Assembly: GCA_003285105.1 (NCBI GenBank)
Contig: CP030158.1
Location: forward strand, 1,402,501-1,466,500
Source: Roseithermus sacchariphilus
GTDB taxonomy: Bacteria; Bacteroidota; Rhodothermia; Rhodothermales; MEBIC09517
Length of the DNA: 64,000 bases
Direction: 5' to 3'
In this document: piece by piece, positions 4,852 to 44,774 of the stretch
Position numbering within the stretch: the first letter of the stretch is position 1
Layout: every line of letters starts with the position of its first letter
Position numbers and translations under genes: made by a program
Notes under the pieces: generated by a model
What the model was told of the DNA's origin: nothing
The model's database searches: none
What the model saw: the letters and a program-made list of their open reading frames with translations, nothing else

Positions 4852-7125
<2,274 letters not shown>

Positions 7126-7187
7126 CCGGCTTCCCGGCGGCCCGTCCGGCAGACCCCCGGGGGCCCTGACCCGCCGGAATGAAATTT

Positions 7188-7259
7188 GTTGAAACAGGCA
7201 TTGGCCCGGTGGGACGGGACCACCGCGCGAAACTGAGGCGGTAGGGCCGGGTTGAAACA
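7188..7259. repeat. Two GTTGAAACA direct repeats upstream of trxA
   Basis: GTTGAAACA occurs at 7188-7196 and again at 7251-7259, 63 bp apart, in the 199-bp gap before trxA. The second copy is 66 bp from the trxA start. They may be promoter elements or regulator sites, but I cannot assign them; chance is possible for a 9-mer pair. Confidence 0.3.
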
Positions 7260-7324
7260 TCCGCCCCGTCCGGGGCACTAACAACGTCCATCCCATTCAT
7301 TCATCCCATAGAGGGCTGCTCAGC

Positions 7325-7654
7325 ATGGCAAAACAACTCACCGACGCGACCTTCCAGGAAGACGTACTCAACGCCGACAAGCCCGTGCTGGTCGATTTCT
7401 GGGCGACGTGGTGCGCTCCGTGCCGCATGATCGCCCCGATCATCGAAGAACTGGCCGAGGAATTCGAGGGCCGCGCCGTCATCGGCAAGCTCGACGTGGA
7501 CCACAATCCGCAGACGGCCATGCAGTTTGGCGTGCGCTCCATCCCGACCCTGCTGTTCTTCAAGAATGGCCAGGTGGTCGATCAGCTGGTCGGGGCCGTG
7601 CCCAAGCGGGTGCTGGTCAACAAGCTGGAGGAGCTGGCGGGGCAGCCGGCCTGA
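7325..7654 (+). CDS. trxA: Thioredoxin
   Basis: A 109-residue thioredoxin, the usual family length. The redox motif is WCAPC (Cys30 and Cys33), with Ala in place of the more common Gly of WCGPC; this variant is seen in other bacterial thioredoxins. The cis-proline motif SIPT and the KNGQ segment are present. It is a cytoplasmic dithiol reductant, and it can serve the thioredoxin-coupled arsenate reductase encoded at 38.2 kb. trxB lies 133 bp downstream on the same strand, separated by a strong hairpin, so reductase and substrate are probably expressed together with some read-through control. Confidence 0.96.
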
Positions 7655-7667
7655 CGGCGCCTCGTCT

Positions 7668-7727
7668 CGGCGGTCCGTGCCCGGAGCAGACTCCGCCAGA
7701 CGCGACGGGACCCGGCACGGACCGCCG
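7668..7727 (+). terminator. Nested hairpin between trxA and trxB
   Basis: CGGCGGTCCGTGCC (7668-7681) is exactly complementary to 7714-7727, a 14-bp stem. Inside the loop a second small stem CGGAG/CTCCG (7682-7695) can form. No T-run follows, so it may be an attenuator, a processing site or a Rho-aided terminator rather than a classic intrinsic terminator. Confidence 0.5.
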
Positions 7728-7787
7728 GAAGGCCCCCGGCCGCCCGATCTCCGGCGGTCCCGATTCCACCGATAGCCGATACGTTCC

Positions 7788-8873
7788 ATGCCTCAGGATC
7801 TTTTGCACGACGGACACCCCGACCTTTCCGCCTTCGACGGCGTCGACTTCAGCGATGCCGAGCATCCGGCGGTCGTCATCATCGGTACCGGGCCGGCCGG
7901 GTGGACGGCGGCGCTCTACACGGCCCGCGCCAACCTGAAGCCGGTCGTCTTCCAGGGGCCCGAGCCCGGCGGCCAGCTCATGACCACGACCGACGTGGAG
8001 AACTATCCGGGCTTCCCCGAGGGCATCCTCGGGCCGGAGCTGATGGAGAAGTTCCAGGCGCAGGCCACCCGCTTCGGGGCGGACGTGCGCTATGGCACGG
8101 TGACCCACGTGGACTTCTCGCAGCGCCCGTTCCGGTTGCTCGTCGACGAGACGACGCCGGTGCTGGCCGATGCGGTGATCGTCTCCACCGGGGCGTCGGC
8201 CAAATACCTCGGGCTGGAGAACGAGCGGCGCCTCCTCGGTCGCGGCGTCTCGGCCTGTGCCACCTGCGACGGCGCCTTCTTCCGCGACCAGGACGTCGCC
8301 ATCGTCGGCGGCGGGGATACGGCGATGGAGGAGGCGCTCTTCCTGACGCGCTTTGCCCGGAAGGTCTACGTCATCCACCGCCGCGACGAGCTGCGCGCTT
8401 CGAAGATCATGCAGCAGCGTGCCTTCAAAAACGAGAAGATCGAGTTCATCTGGAACACGGTGGTGACGGACGTGCTCGGTGAGAACGAGGTGGAGGGCCT
8501 GATGCTGCGGAACGTGCAGACCGGTGCCACCACCACGCTGGCCGTGCAGGGCTTCTTCGTGGCCATCGGCCACAAACCGAACACGGACGTCTTCCGCGGC
8601 TGGCTCGATCTGGACGGCGCCGGCTACATCCGCACCCGCCCGGATTCGACGTATACGAACATCGCCGGCGTCTTCGCCTGCGGCGATGCCCAGGATCACG
8701 TCTACCGCCAGGCCGTCACGGCCGCCGGGACGGGCTGCATGGCCGCCATCGACGCCGAGCGCTGGCTGGCCGAGCAGGGCGACCTGGATGAGCCGCGCAC
8801 GGAGACGGAATACCACGCGGCGCCGGCCGTGGACAGCGCCCACGGCCACGTCGTCCGGGACACCACGGCGTGA
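7788..8873 (+). CDS. trxB: Thioredoxin-disulfide reductase
   Basis: 361 residues. FAD-binding motif GTGPAG near residue 33, redox-active CATC (Cys157 and Cys160), NADPH motif GGGDTAMEEA (about 174-183) with HRRDELRA, and the C-terminal FAD segment GVFACGDAQD. It passes electrons from NADPH to thioredoxin. The N-terminus is about 25 residues longer than the E. coli type before the first beta strand, and the C-terminal tail is also extended. It lies downstream of trxA, and its TGA stop overlaps the GTG that opens the next reading frame. Confidence 0.95.
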   Translation: MPQDLLHDGHPDLSAFDGVDFSDAEHPAVVIIGTGPAGWTAALYTARANLKPVVFQGPEPGGQLMTTTDVENYPGFPEGILGPELMEKFQAQATRFGADVRYGTVTHVDFSQRPFRLLVDETTPVLADAVIVSTGASAKYLGLENERRLLGRGVSACATCDGAFFRDQDVAIVGGGDTAMEEALFLTRFARKVYVIHRRDELRASKIMQQRAFKNEKIEFIWNTVVTDVLGENEVEGLMLRNVQTGATTTLAVQGFFVAIGHKPNTDVFRGWLDLDGAGYIRTRPDSTYTNIAGVFACGDAQDHVYRQAVTAAGTGCMAAIDAERWLAEQGDLDEPRTETEYHAAPAVDSAHGHVVRDTTA

Positions 8874-36284: not shown

Positions 36285-36440
36285 GATCGACGGACAGAAT
36301 GCGATGGAAGGACGAAGCCGGCCGGGGTCACCGGCGTGCGTGAAGCACGTGTGAACACGTCATGCCCTGCGGTTCCGTTCCCGGACGGCGGAGATGCAAG
36401 GCGGGCGCGAAGATAGAATGAACGCTTGACTCATACCAGC

Positions 36441-36472
36441 ATATCGATGATTTTCTATATCGACGAATATCA
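36441..36472. promoter_or_regulatory. ATATC direct repeats upstream of arsR, probable ArsR operator
   Basis: ATATCGATGA (36441), ATATCGACGA (36457) and ATATCA (36467) lie in the AT-rich stretch before arsR; a TTGACT hexamer at 36427 could be the -35 element. ArsR autoregulates through AT-rich dyads in this position. Confidence 0.55.
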
Positions 36473-36488
36473 ATACGAGGAGATTTCC

Positions 36489-36887
36489 ATGACGGAGATG
36501 GTTTCGACGGGCGTATCCACCGAGGGGGCCGCCTGTGCCTGCACGCCGGTGACCGCGCACCTGGACGTGCGGGAGGTGGAGGCGCTCGCGGCACAGCTCA
36601 AGGCGCTGGCGCACCCGATCCGCCTGCGCATGGTGGACCTGATCCATGCCCACGGCGGGCAGCTCTGCGTGTGTGAGTTCGAGCAGCACTTCGACGTGAA
36701 GCAGCCCACCATCTCTCACCATCTCAAGATTCTGCGGGAGGCCGGCCTCATCCGCAGCCGCCAGGAAGGAGCCTGGGTGCACCACGCCGTCGAGCCCGCC
36801 GCCTTCGCCCACCTGCGGGCGCTCATGGCGCGCTTCGCCGCGGAGGGTGAGGTGCCGTCTCCCGAAACCGCGATCCGTACCGCCTGA
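36489..36887 (+). CDS. arsR: ArsR-family arsenite-responsive repressor
   Basis: 132 residues from the ATG at 36489, which follows an AGGAGAT ribosome-binding site; an upstream in-frame start lies inside the operator region. The winged helix includes QLCVCEFEQHFDVKQPTISHHLKILREAGL with the Cys60-x-Cys62 pair of the classical As(III) site (ELCVCDL in the family). A second cysteine group, ACAC (about 16-18), sits at the N-terminus and could add a ligand. It represses the operon until arsenite binds. acr3 starts 12 bp downstream. Confidence 0.94.
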   Translation: MTEMVSTGVSTEGAACACTPVTAHLDVREVEALAAQLKALAHPIRLRMVDLIHAHGGQLCVCEFEQHFDVKQPTISHHLKILREAGLIRSRQEGAWVHHAVEPAAFAHLRALMARFAAEGEVPSPETAIRTA

Positions 36888-36899
36888 ACCGCCAGACCG

Positions 36900-38039
36900 A
36901 TGTCCACGTCCGTTTCGCGTCGCCTCTCCTTCCTCGATCGGTATCTGACCCTCTGGATCTTCGTTGCCATGGCCACCGGGGTGGCCCTCGGGGCGCTGGC
37001 GCCCGGCCTGGAGGCCTTCTGGGACCGCCTCTCCGTCGGCACCACCAACATACCCATTGCCATCGGCCTCATCGTGATGATGTACCCGCCCCTGGCGAAG
37101 GTGCGCTACGAGGAGCTCGGCAAGGTCTTCCGTAACACAAGGGTTCTCGGCCTCTCGCTCGTGCAGAACTGGGTGATCGGTCCCGCCCTCATGTTCGCGC
37201 TGGCGATCCTGTTTCTGCGCGATTACCCCGAATACATGGTCGGGCTCATCATGATCGGGCTGGCGCGGTGCATCGCCATGGTGATCGTGTGGAACGAGCT
37301 GGCCGAGGGCGACAGCGAGTACGCCGCCGGGCTGGTGGCCTTCAACAGTGTCTTCCAGGTGCTCTTCTACAGCGTCTATGCCTGGGTCTTCATCACCGTG
37401 CTGCCGGAGGTGTTCGGGCTGGAGGGGGCCGTGGTGGACGTGTCGATGGGGCAGATCGCCGAGAGCGTGGCCATCTACCTGGGCATCCCGTTCGTGGCGG
37501 GCCTGCTGACGCGGTTCGTGCTGCTGCGGGCGAAGGGGCATGCCTGGTACGAGCAGGTCTTCATCCCGCGCATCAGCCCGCTGACGCTCGTGGCGCTGCT
37601 CTTCACCATCGTGGCGATGTTCAGCCTGCAGGGCGGCCAGATCCTCGCGCAGCCGCTGGACGTGGTGCGCATCGCCGTGCCGCTGCTGATCTACTTCGTC
37701 GTGATGTTCCTGGTGAGCTTCTGGATGGGCCGGAAGGTGGGGGCGGACTATGCGAAGACGACGACCCTCTCGTTCACGGCGGCCTCGAACAACTTCGAGC
37801 TGGCGATTGCCGTGGCCGTGGGCGTCTTCGGGATCGGCCACGGGGCGGCCTTTGCGGCCGTGATCGGCCCGCTGGTGGAGGTGCCGGTGCTGATCGGGCT
37901 GGTGAACGTGGCGCTCTACTTCCAGCGCAAATATTTTGGCGACCGCGTCGCCGCCGGCCCGGCCGTCGCACCCGCCGACGTGTGCCCGTCGGAGCTTCAT
38001 CTGGCCCGCCGGGTACCCCTCGATAAAACCAGCGAATGA
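36900..38039 (+). CDS. acr3: Acr3 arsenite efflux permease
   Basis: 379 residues with about ten transmembrane segments. The Acr3 signature [38 protein letters not shown] contains the essential cysteine, and [24 protein letters not shown] is the second conserved region. It exports As(OH)3 from the cytoplasm. It directly follows arsR (12 bp) and precedes arsC, with a heptamer satellite of about 105 bp in the gap between acr3 and arsC. Confidence 0.96.
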
Positions 38040-38042
38040 CCT

Positions 38043-38150
38043 GCGCCGTGGAGTGCTGCGGGCTTCTGGCTGCTGGCTGTGGGCTACTGGCTGTGGGCTG
38101 CGGGCTTCTGGCTGCGGGCTGCTGGCTGAAGGCTGAAAGCTGACCGCTGT
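38043..38150. repeat. Heptamer satellite inside the ars operon
   Basis: About 15 units of 7 bp in GCTG orientation (GCTGCGG, GCTTCTG, GCTGTGG) occupy most of the 158-bp gap between acr3 and arsC. Its effect on read-through is unknown. Confidence 0.85.
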
Positions 38151-38197
38151 TTGCTACGAAACGCCTTTCCCCCGAACAACCACTTCTGACAGCATCC

Positions 38198-38626
38198 ATG
38201 CCAGACAAGAAACGCGTCCTGTTCGTCTGCACGCACAACTCCGCCCGTTCGCAGATGGCCGAGGGGCTGTTGCGGGCGATGGCGGGCGACCGCTACGAGG
38301 TGATGAGCGCCGGCACCGAGCCGCGCGGCGTCCACCCGCTGGCCGTGGAGGCCATGCGCGAGATCGGCATCGACCTCTCGGGCCACCGCAGCGAGCACGT
38401 GGATCGCTACCTCGACCCGCCGGCCGACATCGTCGTGACCGTGTGCGACAGCGCGAAGGAGGCGTGCCCCTACGTCCCCGCCCGCGAGCGGCTGATCCAC
38501 CACAGCTTCGAGGACCCCTCCGCCGCGACGGGCACCGAGGCCGAGCGCCTGGCCGCCTTCCGCCGTGTCCGCGACGCCATCCGGGACTGGCTGGAGGCTA
38601 CGTTCGTTGCCGGGGACGAGGCGTGA
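38198..38626 (+). CDS. arsC: Thioredoxin-coupled arsenate reductase (LMW-phosphatase fold)
   Basis: 142 residues. Catalytic P-loop C11-T-H-N-S-A-R17 (CX5R), and the redox relay pair C83 and C90 in VTVCDSAKEACPY, with DPS in the acid-loop HHSFEDPSA. This is the pI258/B. subtilis type, which reduces arsenate to arsenite and is regenerated by thioredoxin. trxA and trxB are in the same window at 7.3-8.9 kb. It completes a compact arsR-acr3-arsC set. Confidence 0.95.
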   Translation: MPDKKRVLFVCTHNSARSQMAEGLLRAMAGDRYEVMSAGTEPRGVHPLAVEAMREIGIDLSGHRSEHVDRYLDPPADIVVTVCDSAKEACPYVPARERLIHHSFEDPSAATGTEAERLAAFRRVRDAIRDWLEATFVAGDEA

Positions 38627-38716: not shown

Positions 38717-39541
38717 TCAGGACAGGCAAAAGTGGGCCGTGAGGCCGGCCGCGTTCGCCGCCTTCTTCACCGCACGTTGCCCCCGGATCGGGTGGAGGTG
38801 ATGCCGGCGGCGCGTGCGGGTGCGCGGATCGACTGAAAAGGTAGGCGAGGCGAATACGTACTGCCATTTCCATTCAAACGGTGCCTGCGGGTATTTGCGG
38901 GCCAGGGCATTGGGCAGTTCGACCTCGTGCATCCCTTCTGCCCGGTCGGCTTCGTACTGGCGGCGGCGCTCATCGAGGTGCGCGTAGAGGTCGGCTTTCA
39001 GCGAAGCCGGCAACGGGACGCGCCGATCCTTGTCTCCCTTGCCGGCCCGCACCGTGATCTCGCTCCGGTCGGAGCCCAGGTCCTGAACCCGCAGGCGCAA
39101 CGCTTCGGAGATGCGCATACCCGTGCCGTAGAGTAGGCGCCCGACCAGGCTTTCGACACCCTGGAGGTGGGCCAGGAGGGCCTGTACTTCGGGGCGGCTC
39201 AGGACGACGGGAAGCCGTTTCGGCCGCCGGGCGCGGGGGAAGTCGCTGAAGTCGCCCGGCTCTTTCTTCAGCACGTGGCGGTACAGGAAGACGAGGGCGC
39301 CCAGCGCCTGATTCTGCGTGGAGGCCGTCACACGCCGCTTCGTGGCGAGGTAGGTCAGGAACTGCTGGATTTCCGGCGCAGCCATGTCCGACGGTCGGCG
39401 TCCTCCATGGAAGATCACGAACCGCCGGATCCACTGGACGTACGCCTTTTCGGTGCGCAGTGCATAGTGCCTCGTGCGCAACGCTTCCCGAACGGCACGG
39501 TCCAGGGCCTGCAGGTTGGCTTTCCGGAAAGGATGAGGCAT
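38717..39541 (-). pseudogene. intI: Truncated integron-type tyrosine recombinase (IntI)
   Basis: 274 residues starting MPHPFRKANLQALDRAVREA. The core-binding domain and box I arginine (GRLLYGTGMRISEALRLRV) are intact, and the IntI-specific insertion is present: ALARKYPQAPFEWKWQYVFAS then DPRTRTRRRHHLHP-x4-QRAVKKAANAAGL. The reading frame then ends at TAHFCLS. The missing ~50 residues would carry the H-x-x-R and the nucleophilic tyrosine, so the enzyme cannot be active. No remainder is found in other frames downstream. It points to a former integron; IS630 and IS3 copies lie next to it. Confidence 0.88.
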
Positions 39542-39612
39542 GATGCGAGGGCGGTGTGAGCGGGCAAGCAGGTTGCCGACGGTGCGGTCACGATACCGCG
39601 TAGAGGGGCGTT

Positions 39613-39652
39613 GTTGGATAAGTTACACGACGAAGAAAGGCAGCTATCCAAC
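39613..39652. repeat. Inverted repeat resembling integron core sites
   Basis: GTTGGAT (39613-39619) and ATCCAAC (39646-39652) fit GTTRRRY and RYYYAAC, the core patterns of integron recombination sites, and extend to an 8-bp inverted repeat. They lie 70-110 bp upstream of the integrase start, where attI is expected. The motif is short, so this is tentative. Confidence 0.4.
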
Positions 39653-39665
39653 AGCATAGCGTAGG

Positions 39666-40268
39666 TCAATAATGTTGAGGCAGGAAGCCGCAGTGCTGGA
39701 ACCATCCCGCGGCATCCGCCGCCGTCACCTGCTCGGTGGCATACTCCACGGCCTCCAGCAGCGCTTCCGCCGTGTCCGCACAGGCCTTCTTGATCAGATG
39801 CTTCAACTTCGACCACAGCAGTTCGATCGGATTGAACTCCGGACTGTAGCGCGGCAGCGGCCGGACGCAGGCGCCCCGCGCCTCGATCTGTTCGACCAGG
39901 TCCGGTGCCTCGTGGATGCGCGCGTTGTCCCACAGCACGATGTCGCCCGGCTTGAGTACCGGCAGCAGGTGCTGCTGGATGAACCCGCGGAAGTGCCAGC
40001 GCCGCACCGTGCCGGTATGCATGGCCACCGTGCCGGCTCCATCAAAGCCCAGCCAGCCCAGCAAGCTGACGCGTTTTCCCTGCCGCAGCGGGGCCTGACA
40101 GACCAGGCGCTCGCCCCGAGGCGCATAGCCGTAGGCCAGGCGCATGCCCTGGATGACTCCGCTTTCATCAACGGCTTTGATCCTGGTCGCATCGACCGTA
40201 CCGAGCCAGTCGCGGAAGGCGGCCCGCTCGGCTACGACGTCGGGGCGCTGTTGCTGCGCGGCCTGCAT
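39666..40268 (-). CDS. IS630 transposase, catalytic part (orfB)
   Basis: 200 residues with the DDE catalytic triad: D in KAVDESGVIQGMRLAYGY, D in DIVLWDNARIHEAPDL and E in FNPIELLWSKLKHL. It overlaps orfA by 37 bp. A run of eight A on the minus strand (about 40272-40279) just upstream of this ATG lies in the overlap zone of open frames and is a likely slippage site, so the active protein would be an orfA-orfB fusion made by frameshifting, as in other IS630 elements. Confidence 0.9.
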   Translation of the reverse strand: MQAAQQQRPDVVAERAAFRDWLGTVDATRIKAVDESGVIQGMRLAYGYAPRGERLVCQAPLRQGKRVSLLGWLGFDGAGTVAMHTGTVRRWHFRGFIQQHLLPVLKPGDIVLWDNARIHEAPDLVEQIEARGACVRPLPRYSPEFNPIELLWSKLKHLIKKACADTAEALLEAVEYATEQVTAADAAGWFQHCGFLPQHY

Positions 40269-40621
40269 CGTCTTTTTTTTCGCGTCAGGCCCAGTCGCGC
40301 CCGGACCCGGCCCATCGTGCGGCGGCTGACCCGACGCCCGGTGTGCTCGGTGAAGCGCTGGGCCAGTTCATCCTGTGTCAGGTCGGGCTGGGCCTCAATC
40401 CAGGAGCGGACGAGGGCCTCGTCGGCCTCAGTTAGCAGCCGTCGGGACCCGCCGGGTTTTTTCGGCTCGAGCGAGCCGCTCTGCCGGGCCTGGCGAATGA
40501 CGCGGTCGACGGAAGCCTTGCCGACGGCAAAGCGCTGGGCCAGGTCGGCCCGGGAGCCTTCGCCGCGCTCATAGGCACGGGCGATGCGCCACCGTAGATC
40601 GGTGGAAAGGGGAGCGGGCAT
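40232..40621 (-). CDS. IS630 transposase, DNA-binding part (orfA)
   Basis: 129 residues with two helix-turn-helix segments: GEGSRADLAQRFAVGKASVDRVIRQ and LTQDELAQRFTEHTGRRVSRRTMGRVRARLGLTRKKR. It binds the element ends. Its frame crosses the A8 tract at LTRKKR and then continues in a non-conserved tail, which fits programmed frameshifting into orfB. Confidence 0.88.
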   Translation of the reverse strand: MPAPLSTDLRWRIARAYERGEGSRADLAQRFAVGKASVDRVIRQARQSGSLEPKKPGGSRRLLTEADEALVRSWIEAQPDLTQDELAQRFTEHTGRRVSRRTMGRVRARLGLTRKKRRCRPRSNSAPTS

Positions 40622-40779
40622 CAGAGTAGCCAGAGCAAAAGGAATGGATACAGAGTCAGACTGAAGATAACATCAACCGCGATGACCTACGCTATACCCT
40701 CTGGCTCTCAGGCACCCATCTATGGAGTTAACCCGGTTTGGTGGACTATCTTCCCCTTACGAACAACGAAGAGGTCCCC

Positions 40780-41112
40780 ATGCCACGAACACGTCCCCCG
40801 TATCCCTCTGAATTCCGCCAGCAGATCATTGCGCTGGCACGAGCCGGACGCTCGCCCCGTCAGCTCGCCGAGGAGTTCGAACCCTCCGAACAAACCATAC
40901 GCACCTGGATCAAACAGGCTGCGCGCGATGATGGCCTGCGCGCCGATGGCCTGAGCACAGCCGAACGGGACGAACTACGCCGACTCCGCAAGGAGAACCG
41001 TCGGCTCCAGCAGGAACGCGACATCCTGGCAAAGGCGAACAATAGGTTCGCCCCTGCGGCCTGGTTCGCTCAGGAGACGAACGTGATACCGAAGCAATCT
41101 TCGCGTTCATAG
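40780..41112 (+). CDS. IS3 transposase orfA (helix-turn-helix)
   Basis: 110 residues from the ATG at 40780 (GAGG ribosome site). HTH region YPSEFRQQIIALARAGRSPRQLAEEFEPSEQTIRTWIKQA and a leucine-zipper-like LRRLRKENRRLQQERDIL. The expected AKAAAWFAQET ending is interrupted by six extra residues (NNRFAP, an 18-bp in-frame insertion near 41039-41058), which may alter frameshifting or be a natural variant. Confidence 0.88.
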   Translation: MPRTRPPYPSEFRQQIIALARAGRSPRQLAEEFEPSEQTIRTWIKQAARDDGLRADGLSTAERDELRRLRKENRRLQQERDILAKANNRFAPAAWFAQETNVIPKQSSRS

Positions 41113-41144
41113 ATGCCCACCAGGCCGAATTCCCCATCCGCGTC

Positions 41145-41972
41145 ATGTGTAAGGTCCTGGCCGTCTCCACCAGTGGCTACTACGCCTGGCGCAGCCGAGT
41201 CCCGTCCCAGCGAACCCGAGACGACGCCATGCTGACCGAGCAGATCCGTGCCCTCCACGCGTGGTCCCGCGGCACCTATGGCGCGCCCCGCATTCATGCC
41301 GAACTCCAGGATCAGGATGTGCATGTGGGGTGCAAGCGCGTGGCTCGTTTGATGCGAGCAGCCGGCTTGACAGGCATCAGCCGCCGTAGAGGGCCCACCA
41401 CGACGCGGCGGAGGGAGGGAGTTGGACCCGCACCGGATCTCGTCGAGCGAGACTTCACGGCGACGGAACCGAACCAGTTGTGGGTGGCCGACATCACCTA
41501 CGTGCCGACGGCCGCCGGCTTCCTATACCTGGCTGTTGTGCTCGACGCCTTCAGTCGCCGGATCGTGGGCTGGTCGATGGCCAATCATCTGCGCACGGAG
41601 CTGGTAGTCGCCGCCCTGGAGATGGCGCTCGAGCAGCGGAAGCCGGAGGCGGTCATCCATCATTCCGATCAGGGCTCGCAGTACACGTCGCTTGCCTTCG
41701 GGCTGCACTGCCGGGAAGCCGGTGTGGAGCCGTCGATGGGCTCGGTCGGGGACTGCTACGATAACGCCATGTGCGAGAGCTTCTTCGCCACGCTTGAATG
41801 CGAACTCATTGACCGCGAGGCGTTCGCCACGCGGGCCGAGGCGCGGCTGGCGATCTTCGACTACATTGAGGGGTGGTACAATCCGCATCGGCGTCACTCG
41901 GCCCTGGAGTATCAGTCGCCGGTAAGCTACGAAAGAAGACACCAAGCACAGGTCGCAGCCGAAAGCTGCTGA
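41145..41972 (+). CDS. IS3 transposase orfB (DDE integrase)
   Basis: 275 residues from the first ATG; the -1 frame is open further upstream (FIDAHQAEFPIRV), so the active product is the orfAB fusion. DDE residues are in WVADITYVPTAAGFLYLAVVLDAFSRR, IHHSDQGSQYTS and DNAMCESFFATLECEL. The C-terminus YNPHRRHSALEYQSPVSYE is standard. The gene looks intact. Confidence 0.93.
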   Translation: MCKVLAVSTSGYYAWRSRVPSQRTRDDAMLTEQIRALHAWSRGTYGAPRIHAELQDQDVHVGCKRVARLMRAAGLTGISRRRGPTTTRRREGVGPAPDLVERDFTATEPNQLWVADITYVPTAAGFLYLAVVLDAFSRRIVGWSMANHLRTELVVAALEMALEQRKPEAVIHHSDQGSQYTSLAFGLHCREAGVEPSMGSVGDCYDNAMCESFFATLECELIDREAFATRAEARLAIFDYIEGWYNPHRRHSALEYQSPVSYERRHQAQVAAESC

Positions 41973-43596: not shown

Positions 43597-44223
43597 ATGC
43601 CCGCCTCGCCCGATGTGCCGTCACCGGAAGCCCTCTGGCGCCGTTTTCGGGGACAGGTCCACCGCTTCTTGGCGGCGCGTCTGCCGAGCGAAGCCGACGC
43701 CGACGATGTCCTGCAGGACGTCTTCCTGCGGCTGCTGGAAGGCTCGACGGCGCTGGAGGACGTGGATAACGTGCGGGCGTGGCTCTACCGGATCGCCCGG
43801 CATGCCCTGGCCGATTTTTACCGGACCCGGACGCGACGCACGACCGAAGTGGTCACCGCCCCCGATGCGCTGCCGCCTCTGCCGGATGCGCCAGCGGCGG
43901 ACAACCTCAGCCCGTACTCGGGGACGCACGACGTGCATGAGGAGGTGCTCTCCTGGCTCCGGCCCATGATCGACGAGTTGCCGGAGCACGACCGCCTGCC
44001 GCTGCTGATGGCCGACGTCGAGGGGCGCAGCCAGCGGGAGGTGGCCGAGGCACTCGGGCTCTCGCTCTCCGGCGCCAAGTCGCGCGTGCAGCGGGCGCGG
44101 GTGCGGCTGGGCATGTTGCTACAGCGCTGTTGTGCCCTGGAGTTTGGGCCGGACGGGCGAGTGGCGGCCTTCCACCGCCGGGCCGGTGCGTCCGCCGCCG
44201 GCTGCGAAGACGGGTGTGGCTGA
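43597..44223 (+). CDS. SigZ-like ECF sigma factor with cysteine-bearing tail
   Basis: 208 residues. Region 2 is about 12-80 (ADADDVLQDVFLRLLEG, NVRAWLYRIARHALADFYR) and region 4 about 125-175 (LPLLMADVEGRSQREVAEALGLSLSGAKSRVQRARVRL). After it comes a tail with C178-C179 and CEDGC (203-207), as in the SigZ subgroup, whose tails carry cysteines. Such thiols may sense metals or oxidants. The next gene downstream is an ArsI-like protein with its own cysteine-rich tail. Confidence 0.88.
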   Translation: MPASPDVPSPEALWRRFRGQVHRFLAARLPSEADADDVLQDVFLRLLEGSTALEDVDNVRAWLYRIARHALADFYRTRTRRTTEVVTAPDALPPLPDAPAADNLSPYSGTHDVHEEVLSWLRPMIDELPEHDRLPLLMADVEGRSQREVAEALGLSLSGAKSRVQRARVRLGMLLQRCCALEFGPDGRVAAFHRRAGASAAGCEDGCG

Positions 44224-44354
44224 GCCGGAAGTGGCAACCTGGATGAAGACGGCGTGAAGGCTGCGTCCTTCTGGCGGAAGCTCCGACGTCTGGCATGTGC
44301 GGTCCGATACCGGCCGCGCGTGCACACGTTTCTCCCATTCATCGAGGTGCTGCC

Positions 44355-44774
44355 ATGAAACGCATCCACATCAACATCCGGGTCAACGATCTGCCGGCTT
44401 CCATCGCCTTCTACACCGCCCTCTTCGGCACCGGGCCGACGACGCAACGAGAGGACTATGCGAAATGGATGCTGGACGACCCACGGGTGAACTTCGCGCT
44501 GACCCGGCGGGCCGGCACGCCCGGCATCGAGCACCTCGGCATCCAGGCCGAGGACGAGGCGGAGTTGCAGCAACTGTACGCCGGTATCGCCGGAGCCGAT
44601 GCCGTGCTGCGGGAAGAAGGTCACACCGTCTGCTGCTACGCACGGTCGGAGAAGTCGTGGGTGAAGGACCCGCAGGGCGTCGAGTGGGAAGTCTTTCGCA
44701 GCTACGGTGAGAGTGACACGTTCTACGGCGAAGACCCGGAGGCGGCCTGCTGCGACGACGCCTGCTGCCCCTGA
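44355..44774 (+). CDS. arsI: ArsI/CadI-like vicinal-oxygen-chelate dioxygenase
   Basis: 139 residues. The glyoxalase-type fold has candidate Fe(II) ligands His5 (RIHINIRV), His60 (GIEHLGI) and Glu112 (GVEWEVF), and the vicinal pair C93-C94 in TVCCYARSEKSWVKDPQG, the thiols that hold trivalent arsenic in ArsI. ArsI cleaves the C-As bond of trivalent organoarsenicals such as MAs(III); close relatives (CadI) are metal-induced. A C-terminal tail ACCDDACCP adds four cysteines. It is 131 bp after the SigZ-like gene. The symbol is by family similarity. Confidence 0.85.
   Translation: MKRIHINIRVNDLPASIAFYTALFGTGPTTQREDYAKWMLDDPRVNFALTRRAGTPGIEHLGIQAEDEAELQQLYAGIAGADAVLREEGHTVCCYARSEKSWVKDPQGVEWEVFRSYGESDTFYGEDPEAACCDDACCP

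Follow-up and report, generated by a model that had tools for sequence, protein, structure and literature searches.

A cysteine-tailed, SigZ-like sigma factor paired with arsI and a predicted SigZ-type promoter: a candidate arsenical switch

Arsenic genes, those of the arsI type included, are normally regarded as ArsR-controlled, and a promoter read by a sigma factor is not known to be their usual form of control. Both ArsI and metal-sensing ECF sigma factors with cysteine tails are already known, and the latter include the closest described counterparts of the protein considered here. In Myxococcus xanthus, CorE is activated by copper and bears a 38-residue cysteine-rich extension with six cysteines after region 4, according to PMC3107203 and PMC9023288. 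PMC9023288 also describes CorE2 of M. xanthus, which senses Cd and Zn, and OrbS of Burkholderia cenocepacia, which belongs to a siderophore system, is inhibited by iron and carries a C-terminal cysteine metal sensor of the form C-X2-C-X3-C-X5-C. CorE and CorE2 were classed in ECF44, now ECF238, and most ECF238 members outside the former ECF44 also lack the CXC of the linker, as stated in PMC8999054.

We analyzed a 64-kb stretch of DNA from Roseithermus sacchariphilus, hereafter the window, in which a sigma factor gene and an arsenical enzyme gene lie side by side with the following features.

43597-44223, plus strand: sigZ, encoding a SigZ-like ECF sigma factor of 208 amino acids, region 2 at residues 13-81 and region 4 at residues 121-171 (Pfam Sigma70_r2 and Sigma70_r4_2, NCBIfam, tree).
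44128-44220, plus strand: cysteine tail of the sigma factor, with Cys178-Cys179, a predicted beta-hairpin at residues 179-194, then Cys203 and Cys207 (cysteine positions, AlphaFold2, 115-protein alignment).
44262-44289, plus strand: predicted SigZ-type arsI promoter, with TGCGTC at 44262-44267, a 16-base spacer and CGACGT at 44284-44289 (alignment with sites ahead of arsI and arsM in relatives).
44355-44774, plus strand: arsI, encoding an ArsI/CadI-family VOC metalloenzyme of 139 amino acids with a C-terminal CCDDACC (NF041414, solved relatives, residue positions).

Like CorE and CorE2, the window sigma factor has no adjacent anti-sigma factor and carries a short cysteine-rich extension behind region 4. 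However, CorE has a clustered C-X4-C-X2-C-X-C, whereas the cysteines of the window protein are spaced as CC, 23 residues and C-X3-C, and the linker between regions 2 and 4, which holds a CXC in CorE (PMC8999054), is free of cysteine in the window protein. The partners also differ, as sigma factors of the window type adjoin arsI or arsM. Membership in the CorE group (ECF44/238) was rejected because the linker CXC is absent; a cysteine-rich domain after region 4 is present, with a different spacing. OrbS offers the likeness of an ECF sigma factor with an on-board cysteine metal sensor at its C-terminus, as we propose for the window protein, but it is iron-inhibited, serves a siderophore system and has another cysteine pattern.

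The original prediction had paired a SigZ-like sigma factor gene with an ArsI-like gene, and both were located there, with the sigma factor closest to SigZ and the enzyme above the NF041414 cut-off. Although the two SigZ models scored highest of 83 NCBIfam families for the sigma factor, its scores of 163.2 bits against NF007215 and 155.5 bits against TIGR02959 did not reach the curated cut-offs of 212 and 168.65, and we therefore refer to the protein as SigZ-like. In a tree of 114 SigZ proteins (L118 and L123 excluded; the label of L177 set to ArsI by hand on locus evidence), it is nested inside, within a strongly supported clade of nine members, eight of which have arsI and one arsM. It also shares with SigZ proteins above the cut-off the two family traits that we define below, a cysteine tail and a TGCGTC..CGWC promoter, the latter with three mismatches. 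Matches found with Foldseek were ordinary ECF sigma factors and carried nothing informative on the tail. By Pfam, no anti-sigma domain was found in the genes that flank the window sigma factor or in 30 neighboring proteins of SigZ loci. The SigZ family takes its name from the protein of Bacillus subtilis, which to our knowledge has no settled function.

The enzyme scored 125.5 bits against NF041414 (cut-off 116), and its solved relatives are 5d4f and 5c4p (E 3e-23). Its start is most likely at 44355 rather than 44295, since the NF041414 match begins at residue 3 of the shorter form. As had been predicted, the protein contains a vicinal pair, Cys93-94, and a terminal ACCDDACC, which comprises Cys132, 133, 137 and 138. 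Cys93-94 align with the CC of 5d4f and 5c4p, and His60 and Glu112 with H and E there, while the position of His5 is occupied by Gln in those chains. We take His5, His60 and Glu112 to be the likely metal ligands and Cys93-94 the substrate thiols. By these features the enzyme resembles the ArsI C-As lyase and CadI, from which it differs in its additional C-terminal CCDDACC. A C-terminal CC also occurs in the ArsI proteins of L044, L053, L073 and L179, and the idea that the adjacent genes specially share or have exchanged their thiol tails was consequently dropped, as each tail appears to be a trait of its own family. At E<=1e-40, NF008823 finds no ArsM in the window's genome, which suggests that ArsI would act there on methylarsenite made by other organisms.

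The tail of the sigma factor agrees with what had been read from the sequence: its only four cysteines are Cys178, Cys179, Cys203 and Cys207, which form CC and CEDGC after region 4, and none precedes residue 178. Across 115 aligned SigZ proteins (L118, an over-long reading frame, excluded), the columns of Cys178-179 are CC in 101, and cysteine accounts for 13.9% of residues from column 178 onward (510/3671), compared with 0.84% ahead of it (167/19911), which identifies the cysteine-rich tail as a trait of the SigZ family. Where arsI or arsM is a same-strand neighbor (49 proteins), 48 proteins have CC and 45 have at least two further tail cysteines; where no such neighbor exists (66 proteins), the corresponding numbers are 53 and 51. 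Among the best 80 of 370 loci from a search of other phyla, 31 of 35 SigZ-type loci were flagged for CC directly after region 4, versus 0 of 44 other ECF loci, L158 having no row in this count and the flagged CC of L114 sitting at another place in the tail. One SigZ clade, L313-L316, has kept the CC and lacks the terminal cysteine pair, the promoter site and an arsM or arsI neighbor all together.

An AlphaFold2 model of the window sigma factor, built from 30 sequences, has a mean pLDDT of 85.8 and features a beta-hairpin (residues 179-183 and 189-194) directly behind the last helix, with pLDDT of about 82-85 over residues 181-200 and loose final residues. The hairpin would place the CC and the terminal cysteine pair on one side of the protein. 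Cysteine tails can also bind Zn structurally or act in redox sensing. Analogy with the known metal-sensing tails supports a SigZ tail that could sense soft metals. The relative G030 has kept the CC, the promoter site and arsI and has no second cysteine pair, which indicates that a four-cysteine site is not required everywhere.

Conservation of the sigma factor-arsI pair, which the original prediction had named as a check, was evident across 296 sampled genomes of the phylum, in which SigZ was identified by TIGR02959 at E<=1e-30, ArsI by NF041414 and adjacency from coordinates. SigZ was found in 43 genomes at 44 places and ArsI in 14 genomes, and 10 of the 14 arsI genes, from six families, immediately follow a SigZ gene in the same orientation (G000, G030, G061, G081, G151, G223, G246, G001, G079 and G280). 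The other four arsI genes are in G232, where the two genes are on separate contigs, and in G133, G137 and G166, which have no SigZ at E<=1e-30. Two further relatives are of the same order: in G317, arsI follows sigZ with one other gene intervening, and in G303, the partner of sigZ is arsM, with acr3 shortly before sigZ. Most ArsM genes of the phylum sit apart from SigZ. In five relatives (L047, at 7159-8346, and L044, L045, L046 and L053), arsI is followed by a cystathionine gamma-synthase/lyase-like gene, which suggests that the arsenical response is coupled to thiol supply.

For other phyla, genome contigs were searched with a 12-sequence SigZ alignment, and the best 80 of 370 loci were kept, comprising 35 of the SigZ type (L097-L130 and L136) and other ECF factors that served as controls. 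Among these best 80, SigZ commonly adjoins an arsenical gene: arsM at, for example, L098, L100, L102, L107, L109, L111-L113, L116, L117, L130 and L136, arsI at L106, L110 and L124, acr3 at L114 and an ArsP_1 permease at L108; the query included ArsI- and ArsM-linked SigZ, and the share of ars neighbors in L097-L136 is therefore no population estimate. All eight ArsM proteins scanned exceeded the NF008823 cut-off. Gene ends come from simple ORF calling, by which some arsM starts are probably placed too far upstream, and L077 is cut by a contig end and has no usable sigma frame. On the SigZ tree, the label ArsI requires at least five changes and ArsM at least ten, which indicates that SigZ proteins gained or exchanged their arsenical-enzyme partners several times. 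These gene neighborhoods support a link of the SigZ family to arsenicals through arsI and arsM partners in many phyla.

We next describe the promoter. In the close clade, the intergenic DNA between sigZ and arsI contains a common block, TGCGTCYTTTT followed by CGACTAC ahead of arsI, in which GCGTC and CGACTAC are exactly 16 bases apart; loci from other phyla hold the same block with CGTCTA, which yields the joint pattern TGCGTCYTTT-N12-CGWCTA. A first pattern, GCGTC-N16-CGACTAC with one mismatch, was abandoned for this longer one because it discriminated poorly in genomes rich in G+C (G000 gave 48 matches, and 28 when the pattern was reversed). In the window's clade the -10 element is CGAC, where other SigZ loci have CGTC, a lineage-specific promoter shift for which region 2 may hold the explanation.

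Among 80 SigZ loci, a count that includes those on which the motif was found and omits L179 (the same place as L072) and the window, the joint pattern occurred exactly in 20, with at most one mismatch in 43 and with at most two in 57, whereas the 45 other ECF loci from the best 80 of 370 gave none at any mismatch level and the reversed pattern gave 0, 0 and 2. Two tests are fairer than this count. In the 296 phylum genomes, which include those that supplied motif loci, all 16 exact matches, in 15 genomes, lay within 5 kb of a SigZ gene, compared with three matches of the reversed pattern; exact matches occurred in 15 of 43 genomes with SigZ versus 0 of 253 without it (Fisher p 2e-14, relatedness ignored). 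The second test used held-out loci, L281-L316 minus L301, from Bacillales and the phylum of G345, drawn from 30 of 37 places (L301 included) and 6 of 7 places, with L280 and L301 dropped as repeats of L097 and L117. A site with at most two mismatches was present in 29 of these 35 loci (7 exact, 19 with one mismatch, 3 with two), and the reversed pattern in one. In addition, 30 whole SigZ genomes of other phyla, scanned with the pattern ending in CGTCT, contained 20 exact sites, spread over 19 genomes; all but one of these sites fell within the SigZ locus, and the reversed pattern matched once.

The sites sit just ahead of arsI or arsM and often ahead of sigZ too. In the held-out set, arsM lies beside sigZ in 19 of 35 loci with a site at its start in 17 of the 19, and many loci have a second site before sigZ, which fits autoregulation. 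With the window added, and three mismatches allowed for it alone, the commonest recognized site-bearing targets across 81 SigZ loci are arsM (17 loci) and arsI (11 loci). In G317, the site is ahead of arsI although another gene separates arsI from sigZ. No site with at most two mismatches was found in 23 of the 81 loci, mostly of deep Bacteroidota lineages, and 66 of 115 SigZ proteins have no same-strand arsI or arsM within 1.7 kb, which suggests that some SigZ proteins may respond to a signal other than arsenic. At L257, where no ars gene is beside sigZ, a second exact site (G019:C2:182429-182456) lies about 4.4 kb downstream of sigZ.

The twentieth exact site of the whole-genome scan, at L275, precedes a glutathione S-transferase with a strikingly cysteine-rich tail (1501-2385, Ferrimonas), and L103 of Endozoicomonas holds another such enzyme with a SigZ-type promoter (5702-6460); these are possible new thiol-arsenical enzymes. 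Cysteine-rich DUF2703 proteins adjoin SigZ at L097 (5687-6274) and L101 (1036-1935), each with a SigZ-type site nearby.

In the window, the site TGCGTCCTT...CGACGT at 44262-44289 lies in the 131-base gap between sigZ and arsI, 65 bases before the arsI start codon. It differs from the joint pattern at three positions and is the sole such match in the 64 kb; by itself it is weak, as 40 of 100 shuffled windows hold a match with three mismatches, but its position, its 16-base spacing and the genome-wide uniqueness of a relaxed pattern are convincing. That pattern, TGCGTCYTT-N13-CGWC, occurs once in the 4.81-Mb genome, at this site, and its reverse not at all. G030 likewise has a single match, ahead of its own arsI, while G303 and G317, whose sites are substituted in the -35 block, have none. 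The scan of the window found no SigZ-type site ahead of its own sigZ. Judged from these sequences, the SigZ-like sigma factor very probably transcribes arsI.

The original prediction had also pointed to an arsR-acr3-arsC operon 6 kb away, which NCBIfam confirmed, with 5.0 kb between the end of arsC and the start of the sigma factor gene. The operon spans 36426-38626.

36426-36887, plus strand: arsR (HTH_metalloreg 88.1 bits, cut-off 55).
36900-38039, plus strand: acr3 (NCBIfam acr3 459.7 bits, cut-off 282.8).
38198-38626, plus strand: arsC (arsC_pI258_fam 137.5 bits, cut-off of 174.3 not reached).

Neither the window scan nor the whole-genome pattern scans found a SigZ-type site at these genes, and we therefore rejected their common control by a SigZ-type promoter. 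Accordingly, the predicted arsenical response stands as far as the conserved pair, the links of SigZ to arsI and arsM and the promoter before arsI are concerned, but it does not extend to arsR-acr3-arsC as part of the same switch. The interval between arsC and sigZ contains genes for an integrase, two transposase units and, in the opposite orientation, a gene with a beta-lactamase fold; at 38717-41972 are the integrase (Phage_int_SAM_4 and Phage_integrase), a DDE_3/HTH_32 transposase over two overlapping frames and an HTH_Tnp_1 and rve transposase. Given these mobile genes and the proximity of acr3 to sigZ-arsM in G303, insertions may have parted an older cluster.

The same mobile genes, together with the frequency of three-mismatch matches in shuffled windows, would fit a different account, in which the two genes merely happen to be neighbors in a mobile island of arsenic genes, the intergenic motif arose by chance and the sigma factor acts on other targets. 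We consider this very improbable, as the single match of the relaxed pattern in 4.81 Mb lies just where relatives lead one to expect it, and the motif holds in held-out loci and stays with arsI in G317 despite the intervening gene.

We regard as probable that the SigZ-like sigma factor, its promoter and arsI form a dedicated arsenical switch, probably of one component. The sigma factor would recognize TGCGTCYTT(T)-N12/13-CGWC(TA), with essentially one target in this genome, the site at 44262-44289 that would drive arsI, and would most likely be kept silent or barely active in the absence of a trivalent arsenical (As(III) or methylarsenite). The arsenical, once present, would bridge Cys178-179, at the foot of the short hairpin that follows region 4, and Cys203/Cys207 at the C-terminus; the bridged tail would reposition region 4, and arsI transcription would start. 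ArsI would then detoxify the inducer or a methylated form of it, and in relatives the same type of sigma factor would drive arsM. The parts of this proposal differ in strength. That the window sigma factor reads the 44262-44289 promoter is strongly indicated. With moderate confidence, and by analogy, we place the sensor in the tail, which is the simplest candidate because no anti-sigma domain was found in the scanned neighbors and the cysteines are confined to the tail. For the ligand we favor, again with moderate confidence, a trivalent arsenical over Cd, Hg or a redox signal, since ArsM and ArsI share arsenicals as substrates and As(III) or methylarsenite is thus the likeliest.

If the ligand were broader, the sigma factor would still transcribe arsI, while its tail would sense a general soft-metal or thiol-oxidation signal (Cd, Hg, Cu or disulfide stress) with arsenic as one inducer among several. 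NF041414 also names CadI, and thiol-type proteins recur as neighbors or targets, namely the cysteine-tailed glutathione S-transferases (L103 and L275), the cysteine-rich DUF2703 proteins (L097 and L101), pyridine nucleotide-disulphide oxidoreductases (L057 and L105) and a thioredoxin-fold protein (L055). However, arsM and arsI predominate among recognized site-bearing targets, ArsM acts on arsenic, and the site recurs at the arsM start in nearly all ArsM-adjacent held-out loci (17/19), which makes a broad signal rather unlikely in our estimation.

An alternative for the tail itself is that it binds Zn or is structural and that the sigma factor, while transcribing arsI, is not the sensor and is ruled either by an anti-sigma factor encoded elsewhere or by its own supply, under an ArsR-type repressor or another promoter. 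The presence of arsR 7 kb away, the missing second cysteine pair of G030 and the lack of a SigZ-type site ahead of the window's sigZ are consistent with this explanation. We nevertheless judge it unlikely, considering that Pfam scans of 30 neighboring proteins and of the window flanks revealed no anti-sigma domain, that cysteine enrichment is limited to the tail and that in many relatives both sigZ and arsM have a site ahead of them, as would suit a sensor that controls its own gene.

Literature searches returned no paper that links SigZ with arsI or arsM, and a large ECF re-classification paper outside their reach may treat the SigZ promoter or neighborhood. The accessible portion of PMC6180224 concerns promoters of other ECF factors, and that of PMC12563154 contains nothing on SigZ. 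The link of SigZ to arsI and arsM and the SigZ promoter are, as far as we found in print, new. A start signal common to SigZ relatives in many phyla, ahead of arsenic genes, suggests that the orphan SigZ family senses and controls arsenic chemistry. The most general form of this idea is that SigZ proteins are widespread one-component arsenic sensors, in which a trivalent arsenical bound directly by the CC-hairpin-Cys tail would activate dedicated TGCGTCYTTT-N12-CGTCTA promoters at arsM, arsI and related thiol genes, often with autoregulation, and here our judgment is almost evenly divided, with a slight lean toward doubt.

SigZ is a named and widespread ECF family, and the promoter, the target class (arsM and arsI) and the sensor hypothesis make its role directly testable in laboratory strains. 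The promoter is specific enough to find more arsenic-response genes by sequence, such as the cysteine-tailed glutathione S-transferases. Control by a sigma factor would join ArsR as a second type of arsenic regulation and could account for how arsM, on which biological arsenic methylation depends, is regulated. We know of no earlier arsenic-sensing sigma factor, and the switch proposed here, if true, would be the first and would provide a function for orphan SigZ proteins.
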